NCBI GenBank assembly: GCA_002706365.1
Contig: PALM01000032.1
Location: 1-64,000 of the forward strand
Source: Flavobacteriales bacterium
Lineage (GTDB): Bacteria; Bacteroidota; Bacteroidia; Flavobacteriales_E; Vicingaceae
Reading direction: 5' to 3'
Length of the DNA: 64,000 bases
Every line of letters begins with the position of its first letter. The stretch's first letter is position 1. This document shows, piece by piece, positions 3,222-13,951 of the stretch. The notes under the pieces were generated by a model, which had not been told where the DNA came from, did no database searches, and worked only from the letters and a program-made list of their open reading frames with translations. The position numbers and the translations under genes are program-made.

Positions 3222-3325
3222 CACAGGGGCCTCGACATAGTCGAGGCTGCACGGGGGAGACACTGAGTAACACAGTTCACAGTGGTTCCCAGAGCTTCCC
3301 TGTGATCCCTGTGAAACAAACTAGA
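3222..3325. repeat. Intergenic repeat region, CTGTGA type, with a TCGAGG inverted repeat
   Basis: A spacer containing the inverted pair GCCTCGAC / GTCGAGGC (about 3229-3246) and a degenerate run of CTGTGA-like words (CACAGTG, CCCTGTGATCCCTGTGAA). Similar words recur at 12280-12325 and 27414-27480. The coding frame of tadA is open through this stretch, but the tadA start is placed downstream. Confidence 0.6.
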
Positions 3326-3913: not shown

Positions 3914-3993
3914 CTCTAACATCTAATCTCTAAAATCTAACCTCTGTCTAGGCTCTAGATTCTAGGTTCTAGCTTCTAGCTTCTAGCTTCTAG
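3914..3993. repeat. Heptamer tandem tracts, TCTAATC and TTCTAG types
   Basis: Two adjoining 7-base-period tracts. From about 3914: TCTAACA, TCTAATC, TCTAAAA, TCTAACC. From 3952 to 3993 there are six units ending in CTAG: GCTCTAG, ATTCTAG, GTTCTAG, then CTTCTAG three times. The tract ends 11 bases before the aspS stop codon. The first part is almost the same as the tract at 10978-11012. Confidence 0.9.
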
Positions 3994-4004
3994 AAAACAG
4001 ACTT

Positions 4005-5753
4005 CTATTTCTTCACTACCTTAAGATGCAACTCCTCCAACTGCTCATCATCCACCTTCGCAGGAGCATCGATCATCACATCTCTTCCTGCATTATTCTT
4101 TGGGAAGGCAATGTAGTCGCGTATAGAATCTGTGCCACCTAGGAGCGCACAAATTCTATCAAAACCGAAGGCAATTCCACCATGCGGAGGAGTGCCGTAT
4201 TCAAAGGCATCCATTAAGAATCCGAACTGAGCTTTTGCTTCTTCATCAGAAAAGCCGAGAAGGGAAAGCATCTTTTCTTGAGTTGGTCTGTCGGCAATAC
4301 GAATAGAACCTCCACCTAATTCCACTCCATTGATCACCATATCATAGGCATTGGCTCTTACTTCTAATGGAGCAGATTCCAATTTATCTAAGTCTTCAAC
4401 TTTTGGAGAGGTAAATGGATGGTGCATGGCGTGCATGGCTCCGCTTTCTTCATCGGCTTCAAGAAGTGGGAAGTCTACCACCCAAAGTGGAGCAAATTCA
4501 TCTCCTTTTCTCAAACCGAGTTCTTTACCCATATGCAATCTCAATGCATTCATGGCTGAGCGAGTAGGATTGGTATCTCCTGAAAGCACCAACAGCAAAT
4601 CGCCTTTTGAAGCCCCCATTTTGTCGGCCCAGGCTTGAAGGTCTTCTTGGGAGTAGAATTTATCGACAGACGATTTAATCGTTCCATCTTCATTCAATTT
4701 CACATAAACCAAGCCTTTGGCACCTACTTGAGGGGTTTTTACATAATTGGTAAGCGCATCAAGCTGCTTTCTGCTATATTCAGCGCAACCTTCTGCATTT
4801 ATTCCAACAACCAAATCAGACTGATCGAATACATTGAATCCTTTTCCTTGGGCAAGCTCATTTAGATTGTGGAATTCCATACCGAAACGAAGATCCGGCT
4901 TATCGGAACCGTATTTCTCCATAGCCTCTGCATAACTCATTCGAGGGAATTTAGGTAGGTCTACCCCTTTAATTTCTTTCACCACCTTCTTCATCATAGC
5001 TTCGAAGGTATCCAGAACATCTTCCTGCTCAACAAAACTCATTTCACAGTCGATCTGCGTAAACTCCGGCTGTCTATCCGCTCTCAAATCCTCATCCCTA
5101 AAACACTTCACAATTTGGAAGTATTTATCATAGCCTGAAACCATCAAGAGTTGTTTGAATGTCTGCGGCGACTGAGGAAGTGCGTAGAATTCCCCTTCGT
5201 GCATGCGAGAAGGCACTACGAAATCGCGCGCTCCTTCCGGAGTGGATTTAATCAGATAAGGAGTTTCCACCTCGATAAAGTCTTCGCCACTCAGATAGTT
5301 TCTGATCTGCATAGCCAGTTTTGAGCGAAGGATGAGTTTTTCCTGAAGAGGGGGGCGACGAAGATCCAGGTATCTGTACTTCATTCTCAACTCTTCACCA
5401 CCATCAGTTTCTGATTCAATGGTAAAGGGAGGAGTCTTGGATTTGTTAAGCACCTTGATCTCATCCACATCGATCTCGATGTTTCCGGTTGGCAATTGAT
5501 CGTTCTTGCTGCTGCGCTCGCGAACGGTGCCCTGGATCTGGATCACAAATTCTCTACCCAATTTACGCGCTTGCTCACAGAGGGCTGCATTCTCATCCAT
5601 ATTAAAGGTGAGCTGAGTGATTCCGTATCTATCGCGCAAGTCGATAAAGGTGAGTCCACCTAGATCCCTAGATTTCTGCACCCATCCTGATAAGGTTACT
5701 TTCTCTCCAATCTGCTGCTCTCTGAGCTCTCCGCAATTGTGTGTACGTAGCAT
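4005..5753 (-). CDS. aspS: Aspartate--tRNA ligase
   Basis: A 582-residue class II synthetase of the bacterial type. The N-terminal OB-fold anticodon-binding domain (about 1-110, [22 protein letters not shown]) is followed by the catalytic core with [12 protein letters not shown], motif 2 ([18 protein letters not shown]), a GAD insertion domain and motif 3 (GIAFGFDR, near 526-533). It charges tRNA-Asp with aspartate. Nothing in the sequence decides whether it also misacylates tRNA-Asn for a transamidase. A TAATTTCG promoter element precedes it and a long repeat-bearing spacer lies upstream. Confidence 0.98.
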
Positions 5754-5777: not shown

Positions 5778-5794
5778 GGAAGAAGGTTTTAAGA

Positions 5795-5896
5795 ACCTAG
5801 AGCCTAGAGTCTAGAATCTAGACAAATGTGAAATTTGAGATGTGAAATCTGAAAAGAGGAGGCTAGATGCTGGAAGCTAGATGTGAAATGTGAAAG
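5795..5896 (+). repeat. Dispersed ~100-bp intergenic repeat, copy A
   Basis: It opens with four heptamers ending in CTAG (AACCTAG, AGCCTAG, AGTCTAG, AATCTAG) and continues with a GTGAAAT/TGAGATG period-7 stretch, then GAAAAGAGGAGGCTAGATGC and GCTAGATGTGAAA. The reverse complement of 12334-12432 shows the same blocks in the same order with small indels, so these are two inverted copies of one element. Confidence 0.88.
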
Positions 5897-6280
5897 TGAT
5901 TGTCGAAGGATAGGCTATAAAGACCATTCTCTCTAACCACAGCAGATCCTTCGGATCTACACGGAGTCGCTTCGCTTCTCCTTCGTAGTGACCTACTACG
6001 GAGAAGGAGCTAGGCACAGCGGTCACAGCGGACCATAGACCAAAAACTATAGGCATTCTAGTGCCCTTTGTCTAGGCCGAGGTCGAAGACCGAGGCCGGC
6101 ATCCATTAAGTAATAACTGATTTAATGGTAAAAATATTGACGAACTGAATTCAAGTATCTAAGAGGGGAGTTCAAATTCGAAGGGACGGCCTGGGTCTTC
6201 GACCTCGATCAAACACTTTGCAATTAGATTAAAAATTTTATTGGTAGAGCAGAGTTGGCATAAAAAGGTTCTCAACTTAA
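5897..6280. other. Non-coding spacer with short inverted repeats
   Basis: No credible gene was seen here. The stretch holds GGATCC-like and CTCCTTCGTAG / CTACGGAGAAG inverted words near 5945-6010, and a pair of opposite-facing words: CCGAGGTCGAAGACCGAGG near 6077-6095 and GGGTCTTCGACCTCGA near 6192-6207. Together with copy A (5795) and the tandem tract at 6282, it makes a 565-base repeat-filled gap between aspS and the next gene. Confidence 0.6.
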
Positions 6281-8298: not shown

Positions 8299-9360
8299 AT
8301 GGAATTGTATAATAAATACGATAAGGAGTTTTTGCAGCAAAAGCTGATGGAGGAAGACTTCAATAGAATCACAATTTCTTTTTACAGATATGTGATCATT
8401 GAAGATCCTCATGCTTTGAGAGATGAACTCTATGAAGAGTGGTCTAGCATGCAGGTATTTGGCCGTACTTATCTTGCCAAGGAAGGCATCAATGCTCAAA
8501 TGAGTGTGCCTGAGCATCATTGGGATGAGTTTATGTTGCGTTTGCAAGCCAGAAAGATCTTTGAAAACTTGCCTATTAAAAAGGCAGTGGAAGATGATGG
8601 GAAATCGTTCTACAAGTTAAAGCTTAAAGTGCGAAGCAAGATCGTGGCTGATGGACTAGACGACGGCACTTTTGATGTGACTAATGTCGGTCGTCACCTT
8701 ACTGCAAAAGAATTCAATGAAGCACTTCAAGATCCCAATTCTATTGTGATCGACATGCGCAATCACTATGAAAGTGAAGTGGGGCATTTCGAAGGAGCAG
8801 TTTGTCCGGAAGTAGATACCTTTAGAGAGGAACTTCCAGAAGTTGAGAAGATCTTAGAAGAACACAAGGGCAAAAAGGTTCTTTTGTATTGTACTGGAGG
8901 TATCAGATGTGAAAAGGCCAGTGCTTATTTCCGACATAAAGGATACGAAGATGTGAATCAATTGCATGGAGGAATCATCGATTATATCCGTCAGGTTAAA
9001 GCCGAGGGTCTTGAGAATAAATTCAAGGGAAAGAACTTCGTCTTTGATGAGCGATTGGGTGAGCGCATTTCCGATGAGATCATTTCTGAATGTCATCAAT
9101 GTGGAAAGCCTTGCGACGATCACACCAATTGCGCGAACGATGACTGTCATCTCTTGTTCATTCAGTGTAAGGAATGTGCTGAAAAGTACAATGGATGCTG
9201 CACTCCAGAATGCAAAGAAATCGCAGCAATGTCAATAGAAGAGCAAAGAAAGCTCAGAAAAGGGAAGAAAAGAGATAAGGAAAGTGTGTTTAAGAGCAGA
9301 CTAAGACCCGATTTGAAAAAAATATACTTCGAAGAAGTAAAAGAAGAATTAGAGAGTTAA
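8299..9360 (+). CDS. trhO: Oxygen-dependent tRNA uridine(34) hydroxylase TrhO (rhodanese family)
   Basis: A 353-residue protein of the YceA/UPF0176 family. An N-terminal acylphosphatase-like domain (about 1-110) is followed by a rhodanese domain with the catalytic loop YCTGGIRCEKA (Cys198), and a cysteine-rich C-terminal segment (about 255-310; CHQCGKPC, CCTPEC) that probably binds zinc. In E. coli and B. subtilis the family makes 5-hydroxyuridine at the wobble base using O2. It stands 18 bases upstream of hmgA and may be co-transcribed with it, perhaps only because both use oxygen. Confidence 0.93.
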   Translation: MELYNKYDKEFLQQKLMEEDFNRITISFYRYVIIEDPHALRDELYEEWSSMQVFGRTYLAKEGINAQMSVPEHHWDEFMLRLQARKIFENLPIKKAVEDDGKSFYKLKLKVRSKIVADGLDDGTFDVTNVGRHLTAKEFNEALQDPNSIVIDMRNHYESEVGHFEGAVCPEVDTFREELPEVEKILEEHKGKKVLLYCTGGIRCEKASAYFRHKGYEDVNQLHGGIIDYIRQVKAEGLENKFKGKNFVFDERLGERISDEIISECHQCGKPCDDHTNCANDDCHLLFIQCKECAEKYNGCCTPECKEIAAMSIEEQRKLRKGKKRDKESVFKSRLRPDLKKIYFEEVKEELES

Positions 9361-9378
9361 AAGAAAAAAGATAGATAT

Positions 9379-10536
9379 ATGCCATTCTACAGAAAAGTAG
9401 GGAAGATCCCCCATAAGAGACATACCACCTTTAAGAAGGAAGATGGTTCGCTGCATTATGAGCAGTTGTTCGGAACCGTTGGCTTCGACGGTATGTCCTC
9501 TTTACTCTATCACCTTCATCGTCCAACTATTGTGAAAGAGATCCTGGGACAGAAAAGTGTTATGCCGGAGATTGCTGTCGAGAAGAATATGCATTCGAGA
9601 AGATTAGTTGGTTTTGATGTAAAGCCAGAAGACGATTTCCTCGATAGCCGTAAGCCAGTTTTGACAAATAGTGATGTAACCATCACTTTGGCTGCTCCAA
9701 AAGAATCACTGAAGGATTATTTCTACAAGAATGCAGATCAGGATGAAGTGATCTTCGTGCATAAAGGAAGTGGAGTATTAAGGACCTTTTTAGGGAATAT
9801 CAAATTTGGATATGGCGATTATCTGGTTATCCCAAGAGGTATGATCTATCAGATCGATTTCGATACGGAAGACAACAGACTCTTTATAGTAGAATCTAAT
9901 CATCCAATATACACGCCTAAGCGATATAGGAATTGGTTTGGGCAGTTGTTAGAGCATTCTCCATACTGCGAAAGGGATTTTAGAACTCCGGAAGATCTTG
10001 AGACTCATGATGAGAAGGGAGAATTCCTAATGAAAATCAAGAAAGAAGGCATGCTTTACGATTTCGTATATGGAACACATCCGTTCGACGTCGTAGGATG
10101 GGATGGATTCAATTATCCATATGCCATTTCAATTCACGATTTTGAGCCGATTACGGGTAGAGTGCATCAGCCACCTCCTGTGCATCAGCAATTTGAGACT
10201 AGTGCTTTTGTGATCTGTTCTTTTGTGCCTAGATTGTATGATTACCATCCGGAATCTATCCCTGCACCATATAATCACTCTAACATCGATTCAGATGAAG
10301 TGCTTTACTATGTGGACGGAGATTTTATGAGTAGAAATGATATAGATGCAGGCCATATTAGTCTGCATCCTGCTGGAATTCCTCACGGTCCGCATCCGGG
10401 AGCGTATGAAAGAAGTGTGGGACAAAAAGAAACAGAAGAATTAGCCGTAATGGTAGATACTTTCAAACCACTTATGATCACAGATGAAGCGATGAAGCTT
10501 GATGATGGGAAGTATTATAAGTCTTGGATTGAATAA
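9379..10536 (+). CDS. hmgA: Homogentisate 1,2-dioxygenase
   Basis: A 385-residue cupin-type ring-cleaving dioxygenase. The C-terminal motif HPAGIPHGPHPGAYE (330-344) and the preceding VHQQFETSAFVICSF block carry the iron ligands. It opens homogentisate to maleylacetoacetate in tyrosine and phenylalanine breakdown. The next catabolic gene, hppD, lies 490 bases downstream, with an unrelated four-helix-bundle gene in between. Maleylacetoacetate isomerase and fumarylacetoacetase are not in the window. It is slightly shorter than the human enzyme, as usual for Bacteroidota. Confidence 0.95.
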   Translation: MPFYRKVGKIPHKRHTTFKKEDGSLHYEQLFGTVGFDGMSSLLYHLHRPTIVKEILGQKSVMPEIAVEKNMHSRRLVGFDVKPEDDFLDSRKPVLTNSDVTITLAAPKESLKDYFYKNADQDEVIFVHKGSGVLRTFLGNIKFGYGDYLVIPRGMIYQIDFDTEDNRLFIVESNHPIYTPKRYRNWFGQLLEHSPYCERDFRTPEDLETHDEKGEFLMKIKKEGMLYDFVYGTHPFDVVGWDGFNYPYAISIHDFEPITGRVHQPPPVHQQFETSAFVICSFVPRLYDYHPESIPAPYNHSNIDSDEVLYYVDGDFMSRNDIDAGHISLHPAGIPHGPHPGAYERSVGQKETEELAVMVDTFKPLMITDEAMKLDDGKYYKSWIE

Positions 10537-10538
10537 AG

Positions 10539-10603
10539 ATTTTAGAGTTTAGAAGGAGTTGGGAACGAGAAATGAATGTTGTAACTTATTGTATCTAAAC
10601 TCT
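10539..10603. repeat. Heptamer words flanking the S23-type gene, left side
   Basis: The spacer after hmgA begins with ATTTTAG, AGTTTAG (10539-10552) and ends with TCTAAACTCT (10594-10603); the two parts are mutually inverted and could pair. The same word occurs in the tract immediately right of the gene (10978-11012). Confidence 0.65.
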
Positions 10604-10608
10604 GAATT

Positions 10609-10977
10609 ATGATAAATAAGAATAAAAAACACACATATAAAAGTTTAAAAATTTGGGAAATAGGAATGGATATAGCGGATGAGGTTTATGAATGTGCAGC
10701 TCAATTTCCAATTGATGAAAGATATGGATTGAGTTCACAGATCAAAAGGTCATCGGTTTCTATTCCAAGCAATGTAGCAGAAGGTTCTTCAAGAGGGAAT
10801 AGTTCGTTTTCTTATTTCCTAGATGTATCCTTAGGGTCGTCATTTGAACTTGATACCCAACTACTGATAGCACTTAGAAGAAATTTTTTAAGAATCAATG
10901 AATACGAGAATGTAGCAGATAAGATTGCAGAGTTTCAAAGGATGGCCATTGGCTTTCAAAGAAAGCTAAACCAATAG
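10609..10977 (+). CDS. Four-helix-bundle protein (S23 / 23S rRNA intervening-sequence type)
   Basis: A 122-residue helical protein with the family hallmarks YKSLKIWEIGMDIADEVY, PIDERYGLSSQIKRSSVSIPSNVAEG and an amphipathic C-terminal half (ELDTQLLIALRRNFL). Homologues were first met as ORFs inside 23S rRNA intervening sequences, and a relative (Avd) serves diversity-generating retroelements; most free-standing copies have no known function. Here it interrupts the hmgA-hppD pair on the same strand and is bracketed by heptamer repeat tracts, the right one starting at the base after its stop codon. It appears intact. Confidence 0.9.
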   Translation: MINKNKKHTYKSLKIWEIGMDIADEVYECAAQFPIDERYGLSSQIKRSSVSIPSNVAEGSSRGNSSFSYFLDVSLGSSFELDTQLLIALRRNFLRINEYENVADKIAEFQRMAIGFQRKLNQ

Positions 10978-11012
10978 TCTCTAATCTCTAAAATCTAATC
11001 TCTAAACTCTCA
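10978..11012. repeat. Heptamer tandem tract, TCTCTAA type
   Basis: Five 7-base units: TCTCTAA, TCTCTAA, AATCTAA, TCTCTAA, ACTCTCA. The tract starts at the base after the stop codon of the four-helix-bundle gene and ends 16 bases before hppD. It nearly repeats the sequence at 3914-3941. Confidence 0.9.
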
Positions 11013-11028
11013 AGAAAAACCAAACGTA

Positions 11029-12189
11029 ATGAGTAAAGAAGTAAAAAGTGTAGACTACGGTCTAGAAAAGATATTTGAAGGAGCAGAAGACTTCTTGCCC
11101 CTTTTAGGAACAGATTATGTTGAATTCTATGTGGGTAATGCTAAGCAAGCGGCTCACTTTTATAAGACTGCATTTGGATTCCAATCGAAAGCATATAGAG
11201 GTTTAGAAACTGGGAGTAAGGATTCCGTTTCTTATGTCTTGCAACAAGACAAGATCAGATTGGTGCTAACCACTCCATTGAGTTCAAAGAATCCAATCAA
11301 TGAACATATTGTGAAGCATGGTGATGGGGTGAAAGTGATTGCCCTTTGGGTGGATGATGCTCGTCAGGCATACAAAGAAACAATTTCAAGAGGAGCGAAA
11401 TCATTCATGGAGCCTACAGTTGAGAAGGATGAAGATGGAGAAGTAGTTCGTGCAGGGATCTATACTTATGGTGAAACTGTACACATGTTCGTAGAGCGTA
11501 AGAATTACAATGGGGTTTTCATGCCGGGATTCAAAGAATGGAAGTCGGATTACAATCCTACACCAACAGGTTTGAAGTATATCGACCATATGGTAGGTAA
11601 TGTAGGATGGAATGAAATGAATACCTGGGTAAAATGGTATGAAGATGTAATGGGATTCGTGAACTTCCTATCATTCGACGATAAGCAAATCCATACGGAA
11701 TACTCTGCTTTGATGTCGAAAGTGATGAGTAATGGCAACGGTCGCATCAAATTCCCGATCAACGAACCGGCAGAAGGAAAGAAAAAATCGCAGATCGAAG
11801 AATATCTCGACTTCTATGAAGGGCCTGGAGTTCAGCACATCGCGGTTGCAACTGACGATATCATAAAGACTGTGAGCGATCTAAGAAGTAGAGGTGTTGA
11901 GTTCTTATCTACTCCACCAGAAGAGTATTATAAGATGGTGCCGGAAAGATTGGCCGAACACGACCATGAATTAAGAGAGGATATTGAAACCCTAAAAGGA
12001 CTTGGTATCATGATAGATGCTGACGAAGAGGGTTACCTTCTTCAGATCTTCACCAAACCAGTAGAGGACAGACCAACATTGTTCTTCGAGATCATTCAGC
12101 GAATGGGAGCAAGAGGATTCGGTGCTGGAAACTTCAAAGCTTTGTTCGAATCGATTGAAAGAGAGCAGGAACTTAGAGGTACCCTCTAA
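11029..12189 (+). CDS. hppD: 4-hydroxyphenylpyruvate dioxygenase
   Basis: A 386-residue protein with two vicinal-oxygen-chelate (glyoxalase-like) halves. The N-terminal half (about 25-165) lacks the metal site; the C-terminal half holds the iron ligands within YIDHMVGNV, VQHIAVATDDI and LFFEIIQR. The FKALFESIEREQELRG tail is the usual gate helix. It turns 4-hydroxyphenylpyruvate into homogentisate, the substrate of HmgA encoded upstream, so the two catalyse successive steps of tyrosine breakdown. A strong terminator follows. Confidence 0.96.
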   Translation: MSKEVKSVDYGLEKIFEGAEDFLPLLGTDYVEFYVGNAKQAAHFYKTAFGFQSKAYRGLETGSKDSVSYVLQQDKIRLVLTTPLSSKNPINEHIVKHGDGVKVIALWVDDARQAYKETISRGAKSFMEPTVEKDEDGEVVRAGIYTYGETVHMFVERKNYNGVFMPGFKEWKSDYNPTPTGLKYIDHMVGNVGWNEMNTWVKWYEDVMGFVNFLSFDDKQIHTEYSALMSKVMSNGNGRIKFPINEPAEGKKKSQIEEYLDFYEGPGVQHIAVATDDIIKTVSDLRSRGVEFLSTPPEEYYKMVPERLAEHDHELREDIETLKGLGIMIDADEEGYLLQIFTKPVEDRPTLFFEIIQRMGARGFGAGNFKALFESIEREQELRGTL

Positions 12190-12231
12190 GCTCTAGTGCC
12201 TAGAGTTAGGAGTGCAACTAGAGTGCGCTAA
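12190..12231. repeat. Heptamer tandem tract after hppD
   Basis: Starting at the base after the hppD stop codon: GCTCTAG, TGCCTAG, AGTTAGG, then more degenerate units AGTGCAA, CTAGAGT, GCGCTAA. Confidence 0.7.
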
Positions 12232-12240
12232 AGTTAAATG

Positions 12241-12270
12241 TGGCTTCCTTGAGAAAGGAGGCCATTTTTA
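12241..12270 (+). terminator. Intrinsic terminator after hppD
   Basis: A 10-bp stem (TGGCTTCCTT with AAGGAGGCCA, one G-T pair) with a GAGA tetraloop, followed by TTTTTATTT. Confidence 0.9.
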
Positions 12271-12279
12271 TTTGGATTC

Positions 12280-12325
12280 ACTCTGTGGTGCTCTGTTCCT
12301 TCCCTGTGATACTCTGTGAGCTAGC
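12280..12325. repeat. CTCTGTG-type intergenic repeat
   Basis: Degenerate words CTCTGTGGTG, CTCTGTTCCT, TCCCTGTGAT, ACTCTGTGAG with a period near 10. The segment CTTCCCTGTGAT recurs at 3295-3306. Confidence 0.65.
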
Positions 12326-12333
12326 TGTCTAAA

Positions 12334-12432
12334 CTTTCACATCTAGCTTCTTGCTTCCAGCATCTAGCCTCCTCTTTTCAGATTTCTGATCTCAGATTTC
12401 ACATTTGTTTAGACTCTAGGCTCTAGACTCTT
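12334..12432 (-). repeat. Dispersed ~100-bp intergenic repeat, copy B (inverted)
   Basis: Its reverse complement matches 5795-5896: heptamers AGTCTAG, AGCCTAG, AGTCTAA, then ACAAATGTGAAAT, a period-7 TGAGATC/TGAAAAG stretch, GAGGAGGCTAGATGCTGGAA and AGCTAGATGTGAAAG. The copies differ by small insertions of about 7 bases, which fits gain and loss of single units. Confidence 0.88.
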
Positions 12433-12472
12433 CTTCGCTTTTCGTTTCTTTGCAATCAGAAAATCTAGATGA

Positions 12473-13951
12473 ATGAAATCTAAGCTCACTGTATACAACA
12501 CCCTTAGCAGAAAGAAGGAGGAATTTACTCCTATTGACGATCAGGTAATAGGGATGTATGTCTGTGGACCTACAGTCTACGGTGATGCGCATTTAGGTCA
12601 TGCGAAATCCTACGTTTCTTTCGACTTGATCTATCGCTATCTGCTGCATATTTATCCCAGGGTAAAGTATGTGCAAAACATCACAGATGTAGGGCATCTT
12701 ACCGATGATGCGGATGAAGGTGATGATAAGATCGCCAAGCAGTCGCGCCTTGAAAAGGTAGACCCAATGGCTGTTGTAGAGAAGTATATGCACAACTACT
12801 TTAGAGATATGGATGCACTAAATGTGAAGCGTGCAGATATCTATCCTCGTCCTTCAGGACATATCCAAGAACAAGTAGAGAGCATTCAAACACTCATCGA
12901 TAAAGGTTTTGCCTATGAAGCCAATGGCTCAGTTTACTTCGATGTGAGCAAATACGATGAGTCATTCGATTATGGGAAGCTATCGGGAAGAACTATAGAG
13001 CAATTATTGGAAGGCGCAGCGAATAGGGAGTTGAGCGGACAAAGCGACAAGAAGAATCCATTCGACTTTGCCCTTTGGAAAAAGGCTGAACCTTCGCATT
13101 TGATGCAGTGGAATTCTCCTTGGGGCAAGGGCTATCCTGGCTGGCATATCGAGTGTACCGTAATGAGCCAAAAATATCTCGGTGAGAATTTCGATATTCA
13201 TGGAGGTGGATTGGAAAATGCTTTCCCTCATCATGAATGTGAGATTGCCCAAGCTGAAGCCTTAACTTCAAAGTCGTTCGCCAATTACTGGCTGCATAAT
13301 AATATGGTGACCATCAACGGTCAGAAAATGGGCAAATCGCTGGGGAATGGCATCTTCTGTCATGAACTTTTCACCGGCGACAATTTCCAATTGGACCGGG
13401 CTTATTCACCAATGACCGTTCGTTTCTTCATTCTGCAGTCGCACTACAGATCTACTTTGGACTTTTCTAATGAAGCTTTGGATGCTGCTAGCAAAGGTCT
13501 AGGCCGACTGCAAGATGCGGTGCTTAAATTGGATGAGCTTGTGGCTGTGGCCGATGGCAAGGAAGAGGTCGCCGAATGGATAGAGAGTTTATACTCCGCC
13601 ATGAACGACGATTTCAATTCACCAATTGCAATTGCCCAACTCTTCGAAGGTGCTAAATTGATCAATAGTGTTGCCGATGGAAAGAAGCAGATCAATCAGG
13701 AGAATCTAGATAAGCTCAAAAAGGCATTCAAAGACTTCTATTTCGATATTCTCGGATTGGAGATCGAAGGAAAAGCTGAAGTCGATAATGAAGTGACTGA
13801 TGAATTGATGCAATTGATCATTCAATTTAGACAGGCTGCCAAAGAAGAACGCGACTACGCTACAGCGGATAAGATTCGCGATAAATTAAAAGAAATGAAG
13901 ATCGTGATCAAGGATCACAAAGACGGAGCCAGCTGGGAATATGAAGATTAA
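12473..13951 (+). CDS. cysS: Cysteine--tRNA ligase
   Basis: A 492-residue class I synthetase. The zinc-site cysteine C31 lies in MYVCGPTVYGDAHLGHAKSY, which also carries the HIGH-type HLGH (40-43). The other probable zinc ligands are C228 (WHIECTVMS), H253 and E257. The KMSKS loop is KMGKS (285-289). The C-terminal DALR-like helical domain occupies about 340-492. The gene overlaps the following lipoprotein gene by 11 bases, so the two are probably translated together. Confidence 0.97.
   Translation: MKSKLTVYNTLSRKKEEFTPIDDQVIGMYVCGPTVYGDAHLGHAKSYVSFDLIYRYLLHIYPRVKYVQNITDVGHLTDDADEGDDKIAKQSRLEKVDPMAVVEKYMHNYFRDMDALNVKRADIYPRPSGHIQEQVESIQTLIDKGFAYEANGSVYFDVSKYDESFDYGKLSGRTIEQLLEGAANRELSGQSDKKNPFDFALWKKAEPSHLMQWNSPWGKGYPGWHIECTVMSQKYLGENFDIHGGGLENAFPHHECEIAQAEALTSKSFANYWLHNNMVTINGQKMGKSLGNGIFCHELFTGDNFQLDRAYSPMTVRFFILQSHYRSTLDFSNEALDAASKGLGRLQDAVLKLDELVAVADGKEEVAEWIESLYSAMNDDFNSPIAIAQLFEGAKLINSVADGKKQINQENLDKLKKAFKDFYFDILGLEIEGKAEVDNEVTDELMQLIIQFRQAAKEERDYATADKIRDKLKEMKIVIKDHKDGASWEYED

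Follow-up and report, generated by a model that had tools for sequence, protein, structure and literature searches.

A four-helix-bundle gene and its two inverted heptamer arms form one genetic unit between bacterial protein genes

The hmgA-hppD element and its protein

The window analyzed in this work, a stretch of 64,000 nucleotides from a Flavobacteriales genome, contains a gene for a four-helix-bundle (4HB) protein of the S23 type between an hmgA-like gene and hppD (Table 1). A previous sequence-only reading had recognized this gene and its position from the letters, and the gene coordinates and family profiles confirm it, with matches above the cut-offs to PF05635 (102.7 bits, cut-off 33.8) and TIGR02436 (92.4 bits, cut-off 24). 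Among its neighbors, hppD is clear, with 455 bits against a cut-off of 277. The hmgA-like protein is a divergent member, far under the hmgA equivalog cut-off (TIGR01015, 70 bits vs. 511), that still adjoins hppD in much of the family. The same reading had described heptamer brackets around the 4HB gene, and these are indeed found: tandem repeats finder (TRF) arrays of period 7 and period 14 occupy positions 10978-11010, starting with TCTCTAATCTCTAAAATCTAATCTCTAAACTCT right after the 4HB stop codon, and AGATTTTAGAGTTTAGA and TCTAAACTCT lie to the left of the gene. What had been missed is that the left tract is the reverse complement of the right one; the right tract scores 29 with its own left flank and ranks first among the 102 right flanks compared below.

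Table 1. Features of the hmgA-hppD element and nearby gene-less tracts (positions within the window).
Feature	Position	Strand	Remarks
hmgA-like gene	9379-10536	+	upstream same-direction host gene; stop codon 10534-10536
Left arm AGATTTTAGAGTTTAGA, heptamers AGANNNN	10537-10553	+	starts at the first base past the hmgA stop codon
TTGTAACTT, promoter-like word	10579-10587	+	between left arm and start codon; promoter role inferred
TCTAAACTCT, inverted local copy of left-arm words	10594-10603	+	directly before the start codon
4HB gene, 23S_rRNA_IVP / S23 family, Avd-like fold, 122 aa	10609-10977	+	
Right arm TCTCTAATCTCTAAAATCTAATCTCTAAACTCTC, heptamers inverted and complementary to those of the left arm	10978-11011	+	starts at the first base past the 4HB stop codon
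hppD (4-hydroxyphenylpyruvate dioxygenase), downstream host gene	11029-12189	+	TIGR01263, 454.7 bits
Gene-less inverted pair CGAGGTCGAAGACCGAGGCCG / reverse complement, loop of 88 nt	6078-6207		95% match over 21 nt
Gene-less CTAGANY heptamer tract, from the family with a burst in this genome	5792-5822		

Two further words lie between the left arm and the start codon. TTGTAACTT, as judged by eye, is common to most elements of two congeneric genomes in this interval. TCTAAACTCT offers the left arm a pairing partner alternative to the right arm, and the RNA fold in which both pair has a z-score of -3.27; local inverted copies of this kind were found in only 12 of 138 armed elements. The search of positions 9000-13000 with known RNA families returned no Rfam match at E<=1, and the element gave no PADLOC match, so that membership of a known RNA family within that range and of a defence system were both rejected.

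The 4HB gene is the only gene between the arms of this element, which therefore lacks the known transposase by which an IS or a MITE would be recognized; neither a nuclease nor a recombinase nor a reverse transcriptase is encoded inside it, and no other gene was seen between the arms in the copies inspected. The element sits between two protein genes, outside any rRNA gene, and hence does not meet the location criterion of an rRNA intervening sequence (IVS). The AlphaFold2 model of the protein is a confident four-helix bundle (pLDDT 94.6), whose nearest fold is XCC0516 (2GSC; Z 20.7, rmsd 1.1 over 114), followed by BT_0352 (2RLD; Z 17.4). The DGR accessory protein Avd (8UBE, Z 15.3; 4DWL, Z 14.8) scores above the best unrelated bundle (12.9); matches of the 4HB protein to Avd profiles are weak. 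The similarity of Avd to PF05635 had already been noted (PMC10053308), and a homopentameric state is known for XCC0516 (Lin 2006, cited by PMC4990558). The genome, which is 95.7% complete, gave no match to PF00078, and a partner reverse transcriptase in it was thus rejected. Among relatives the gene evolves under purifying selection, with dN/dS of about 0.1 in most pairs, which indicates that the protein matters to something, be it the element or the host.

Inverted heptamer arms and their link to the protein

This genome (3.02 Mb) carries 12 4HB genes, and their flanks show a second point that had been missed, namely that nearly all are bracketed by short tandem arrays, inverted between left and right and varying in sequence from copy to copy: CTAGANY in L001 and L002, CAGAAAT-like words in L011 and L012, GGTCGAG-like words in L005, GAGGAC in L007 and AAGGATT in L003. 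We quantified the pairing in a main set of 102 4HB genes, drawn from about 40 genomes of Bacteroidota, by reverse-complementing the 220 bases downstream of each gene and aligning them to the 220 bases upstream. The own pair was the best among all 102 flanks for 64 of the 102 genes (1 expected by chance), and the mean score was 33.4 for own pairs, 17.7 for mismatched pairs and 19.9 for own pairs in direct orientation. Scores of at least 30 were reached by only 6 of 332 control genes of this genome, two of the six being themselves 4HB genes. The top inverted flank score among these controls (53) belongs to a non-4HB gene, that of an FKBP-type isomerase (L149:15591-16019).

Clear arms are absent from about a third of the 102 copies. 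Complementarity between the arms is 83% in the 67 armed elements, whose left arm is C-poor (0.08) and whose autocorrelation, approximately 0.28 at most other lags, reaches 0.56 at lag 7, 0.535 at lag 14 and 0.487 at lag 21. Left and right arms alike mostly hold 4-5 units, and neighboring repeat lengths other than 7 are hardly present. Heptamer repeats without a known role do occur in other bacteria according to two reports (PMC4692102, PMC4679880), and arrays left by passive slippage might come to lie beside a gene by chance. The inverted, element-specific pairing, rare around control genes, contradicts this explanation, as does the near absence of other periods; it was rejected on the mismatched-pair, control-gene and other-period controls, and we give it practically no credence.

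The order of the heptamers also matches between the arms beyond that of shuffled arrays (Fisher p 2e-7, 0.001 and 0.03 in three sets), the similarity of the arms coming mostly from the shared unit and less from this order. The matched order, together with the Coxiella 23S IVS, whose ends are inverted repeats, whose S23p gene is preceded by GACAGAT heptamers and which is cut by RNase III (PMC4990558), would suit an explanation in which complementarity is kept for an RNA stem and RNase III cuts the cassette out of the operon mRNA. Against it, G.U-compatible mismatches are as frequent in sense as in antisense (98:94 and 76:79 in two sets), and thus give no sign of selection for pairing of the sense-strand RNA. 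Besides, such a stem leaves both the 7-base period and the protein-specific heptamers unexplained. Selection on a sense-RNA stem as the sole cause of the complementarity was rejected on the wobble parity, and we hold the excision explanation as a whole to be rather improbable.

The heptamer sequence follows the protein. For pairs of elements from different genomes without a shared flanking gene (shared sites were filtered by flanking proteins in place of a nucleotide filter, and the result held), the correlation of the heptamer profiles was 0.75 at protein identities of at least 55% (78 pairs) vs. 0.44 after permutation (p 0.0005), 0.51 at 45-55% identity and 0.40-0.42 under 45%. Pairs occupying the same site with 35-55% identity correlate at only about 0.51. 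It is thus the protein, not the place, that predicts the heptamer. An example is the pair Chryseobacterium L157 and Flavobacterium L158, with 89% identical proteins and near-identical heptamers at different sites. These results also bear on the idea that the 4HB gene is a passenger and that an unrelated transposase recognizes the heptamer ends. Although the lack of a catalytic domain in the protein and the abundance of gene-less copies would agree with it, the heptamer goes with the 4HB protein from genus to genus and from site to site, and no second gene accompanies it in the copies inspected, so that this idea appears very improbable.

Period and pairing were reproduced in a second set of 79 loci, mainly from other Bacteroidota (own 31.9 vs. 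18.4). Among loci from Gammaproteobacteria and a few from other phyla, the own pair came first in 18 of 34; in this Gammaproteobacteria-dominated set period and pairing are stronger (0.66 at lag 7) and the units include GGGAGTA/GGGAATA and GTGAGGC. The own pair also came first in 9 of 12 plasmid loci, 11 of the 12 being cyanobacterial, with arms including GGGAGTA, GGTGTAG, GGGAACA and AAAAGCT. As the groups are related by descent, counts across them are not independent events. On plasmids of Anabaena sp. 90 and Pseudanabaena, 4HB genes with heptamer arms lie between cas6 and cas4 (L236 and L237).

Placement, empty sites and gene-less tracts

Placement of the elements is directional. The upstream gene is co-directional in 198 of 211 elements, vs. 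a baseline of 203 of 302 (0.67) in this genome, and the median distance of the left-arm start from the upstream stop codon is 0, -2 and +1 nt in three sets. Some sites recur throughout the phylum, with gene names read by eye from the flanking protein sequences: fadA-acyl-CoA dehydrogenase (27), 3-hydroxyacyl-CoA dehydrogenase-thiolase (17), hmgA-hppD (9), sdhA-sdhB (8), sufB-sufC (4) and mutA-mutB (4). When the six main site labels are mapped on a tree of 178 proteins, 19 changes are required (minimum 5, shuffled 36), which indicates that sites are partly inherited and partly re-inserted or replaced; some copies at the same site have proteins only 36% or 26% identical, which fits replacement.

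Sites can also be empty. The sequence-only reading had suggested that the gene moves, or is kept, together with its tracts, and had proposed a search for an empty site in related genomes. Within the family, 11 genomes carry a 4HB gene at hmgA-hppD and 11 lack one, their gaps of 12-69 bases retaining no tract or arm; in several other relatives hppD lies away from hmgA. With these empty sites, the armed copies and the protein-tied heptamers (0.75 vs. 0.44), the suggestion is supported. Conservation at this place across the family, which would have refuted it, is only half fulfilled, in that the copies at the site cluster in the tree. The other check proposed, whether further 4HB copies carry the same flanking tracts, showed that they do carry tracts, but with a sequence that is element-specific and tied to the protein. 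In the congener, hmgA-hppD is filled by a 4HB gene approximately 50% identical, whose arms are quite different, yet match each other.

The clustering of the hmgA-hppD 4HB genes in the tree, with L001, L002, L044 and L065 from other sites nested among them, indicates that the copy is probably old at this place, with losses, rather than a fresh arrival, and that much of the 4HB distribution is vertical; a fresh insertion at hmgA-hppD was on this ground partly rejected. We recognized no target-site duplication; the filled hmgA-hppD sites have diverged too far from the empty ones to display it. In a congeneric pair (L054 in G004 and L084 in G035) the element is 95-100% identical and the flanks mostly 72-97%, which we read as recent transfer or conversion of the unit. 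Pseudogene 4HB copies occur in this genome and in relatives. Movement is accordingly an inference from presence and absence, from spread to other sites and from the gene-less burst described next; no transposition was observed.

Overlapping matches to CTAGANYCTAGANYCTAGA number 256 in this genome, 19 in the congener and 0 in six relatives, with 0 for the reversed control, and the CTAGANY matches of this genome are mostly without a 4HB gene. A 464-kb sample holds 23 separate CTAGANY tracts, whose standard left-type form has about four heptamers and several of which lie 3-11 bases past a co-directional stop codon. A gene-less hairpin (L151:9782-9859) has the same 19 bases as the left arm of the hmgA-hppD element, and the arm words of the gene-less pair in Table 1 resemble those of the L005 and L008 elements. 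In samples of other genomes, six tracts were found in 400 kb where there are 9-12 4HB genes and none in 299 kb where there are 0-2; that tract density tracks 4HB gene number is suggested by these samples, which are too few to conclude.

Within the window, two long mosaic tracts (5792-5899 and 12335-12431) lie on either side of the hmgA-hppD element, at a distance of about 6.5 kb from each other; they are near reverse complements and contain CTAGANY heptamers and the words CACATTTG and GCTTCCAGCATCTAG in the same order. The gene aspS (4005-5753, minus strand) is flanked by inverted CTAGANY tracts (3929-3984 and 5792-5840) of a polarity opposite to that of 4HB elements. A tandem word CTCTGTG/CACAGGG with a unit of about 9 occupies intergenic DNA at 3240-3314 and 12280-12330, and similar words lie downstream of L006.

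A host-useful, self-regulating cassette has to be weighed here. In it, the ring would bind the single-stranded RNA of the left arm before its own start codon, much as TRAP (trp RNA-binding attenuation protein) rings bind their triplets, the right arm or the local copy would compete by pairing, and movement would be rare. The strong purifying selection on the 4HB gene, the conserved places in metabolic operons, the C-poor left arm and the inverted local copy that folds with it before the ATG speak for such a cassette, and so do the conserved heptamer positions, which are contiguous in 32 of 94 cases vs. 18.8 by chance (p 0.001). The empty half of the family's hmgA-hppD sites, the pseudogene copies, the burst of gene-less tracts and the absence of a strand-specific wobble signal speak against it, and we consider it unlikely, without dismissing it.

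A proposed selfish element and its relation to known systems

Altogether, our results show that a 4HB gene and two inverted heptamer arms make up one genetic unit, that heptamer sequences are 4HB lineage-specific, that placement is directional, that sites can be empty and that gene-less families can burst. The reading we lean towards is that of a selfish, IVS-like element residing in mRNA operons, whose Avd-like ring reads the heptamer arrays; both the binding and the mechanism of movement are inferred. Its anatomy comprises a left arm of about 4-5 heptamers starting at the stop codon of a co-directional host gene, the 4HB gene, and a right arm, the reverse complement of the left, that stops a few bases short of the next gene. 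The protein may assemble into an Avd-like homopentameric ring that reads the array, perhaps with one heptamer per subunit, a possibility raised by the 4-5 units per arm and the pentamer. The ring would mark the ends of the element, and movement would be left to host or unknown enzymes; the same machinery could also spread gene-less arm pairs, as MITEs rely on an autonomous relative. By inserting in sense past stop codons the element would ride on host transcription without breaking a gene, and the read-through RNA may fold into a stem open to trimming by RNase III, by analogy with rRNA IVSs.

We further entertain, only tentatively and as no more than a possibility, a wider version, in which Avd-like pentameric rings without a nuclease of their own and with lineage-specific heptamer ends occur in several phyla, and the heptamer SSRs of cyanobacteria, Xanthomonas and Bacteroidota largely derive from such elements. 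The loci compared include no chromosomal arrays of Xanthomonas or Nostoc; a search with XCC0516 led to no Xanthomonas genome (best match, 57% identity), which leaves GGGAATC arms there outside the comparison.

Two old puzzles come together in these elements, the function of S23/IVP four-helix bundles and the origin of the heptamer repeats in cyanobacteria, Xanthomonas and others, and the elements may explain these long-puzzling repeats. If the protein reads its own heptamers, both puzzles become testable by one binding assay. If true, this would be a compact type of element that spreads without an obvious transposase and has a tendency to settle past stop codons in metabolic operons, with consequences for operon annotation and for the question of how bacterial repeats arise. 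The structural kinship with Avd hints at an older, reverse transcriptase-free role of the fold. A link of heptamer repeats to S23/4HB genes was not found in the open-access literature.

TRAP rings bind spaced GAG/UAG triplets. With TRAP the elements share only the idea of a ring reading evenly spaced short motifs, since the protein is unrelated and no binding has been shown for 4HB. With DGR Avd the 4HB protein shares its fold, and no reverse transcriptase was found in this genome. REP/RAYT and MITE/IS systems, as here, combine gene-bearing elements with many gene-less copies that have the same ends; in contrast to them, there is no Y1 or DDE transposase here, and the ends are tandem heptamers of varying sequence.

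The arrays also meet the definition of bacterial heptamer SSRs, namely tandem 7-base units in intergenic DNA, and share the 7-base unit with Xanthomonas GGGAATC, Nostoc GGGGA(C/T)T, Calothrix heptanucleotides and TAACTGA. The GGGAATC repeats prefer four units, form inverted pairs, have a G-rich sense strand near stop codons and are of unknown role (PMC4692102), TAACTGA occurs in Beggiatoaceae, Cyanobacteria and Bacteroidetes (PMC4679880), and no associated gene is named in these reports as far as read, whereas here the arrays are the ends of a 4HB gene. The rRNA IVSs with an S23p ORF of Leptospira and Coxiella share the protein family and the complementary ends, and that of Coxiella also the tandem heptamers before the ORF (PMC4990558). 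Those IVSs differ from the elements described here, which are found between protein genes in metabolic operons, are present many times in a genome, bear lineage-specific heptamer arrays on either arm and have relatives without a gene.
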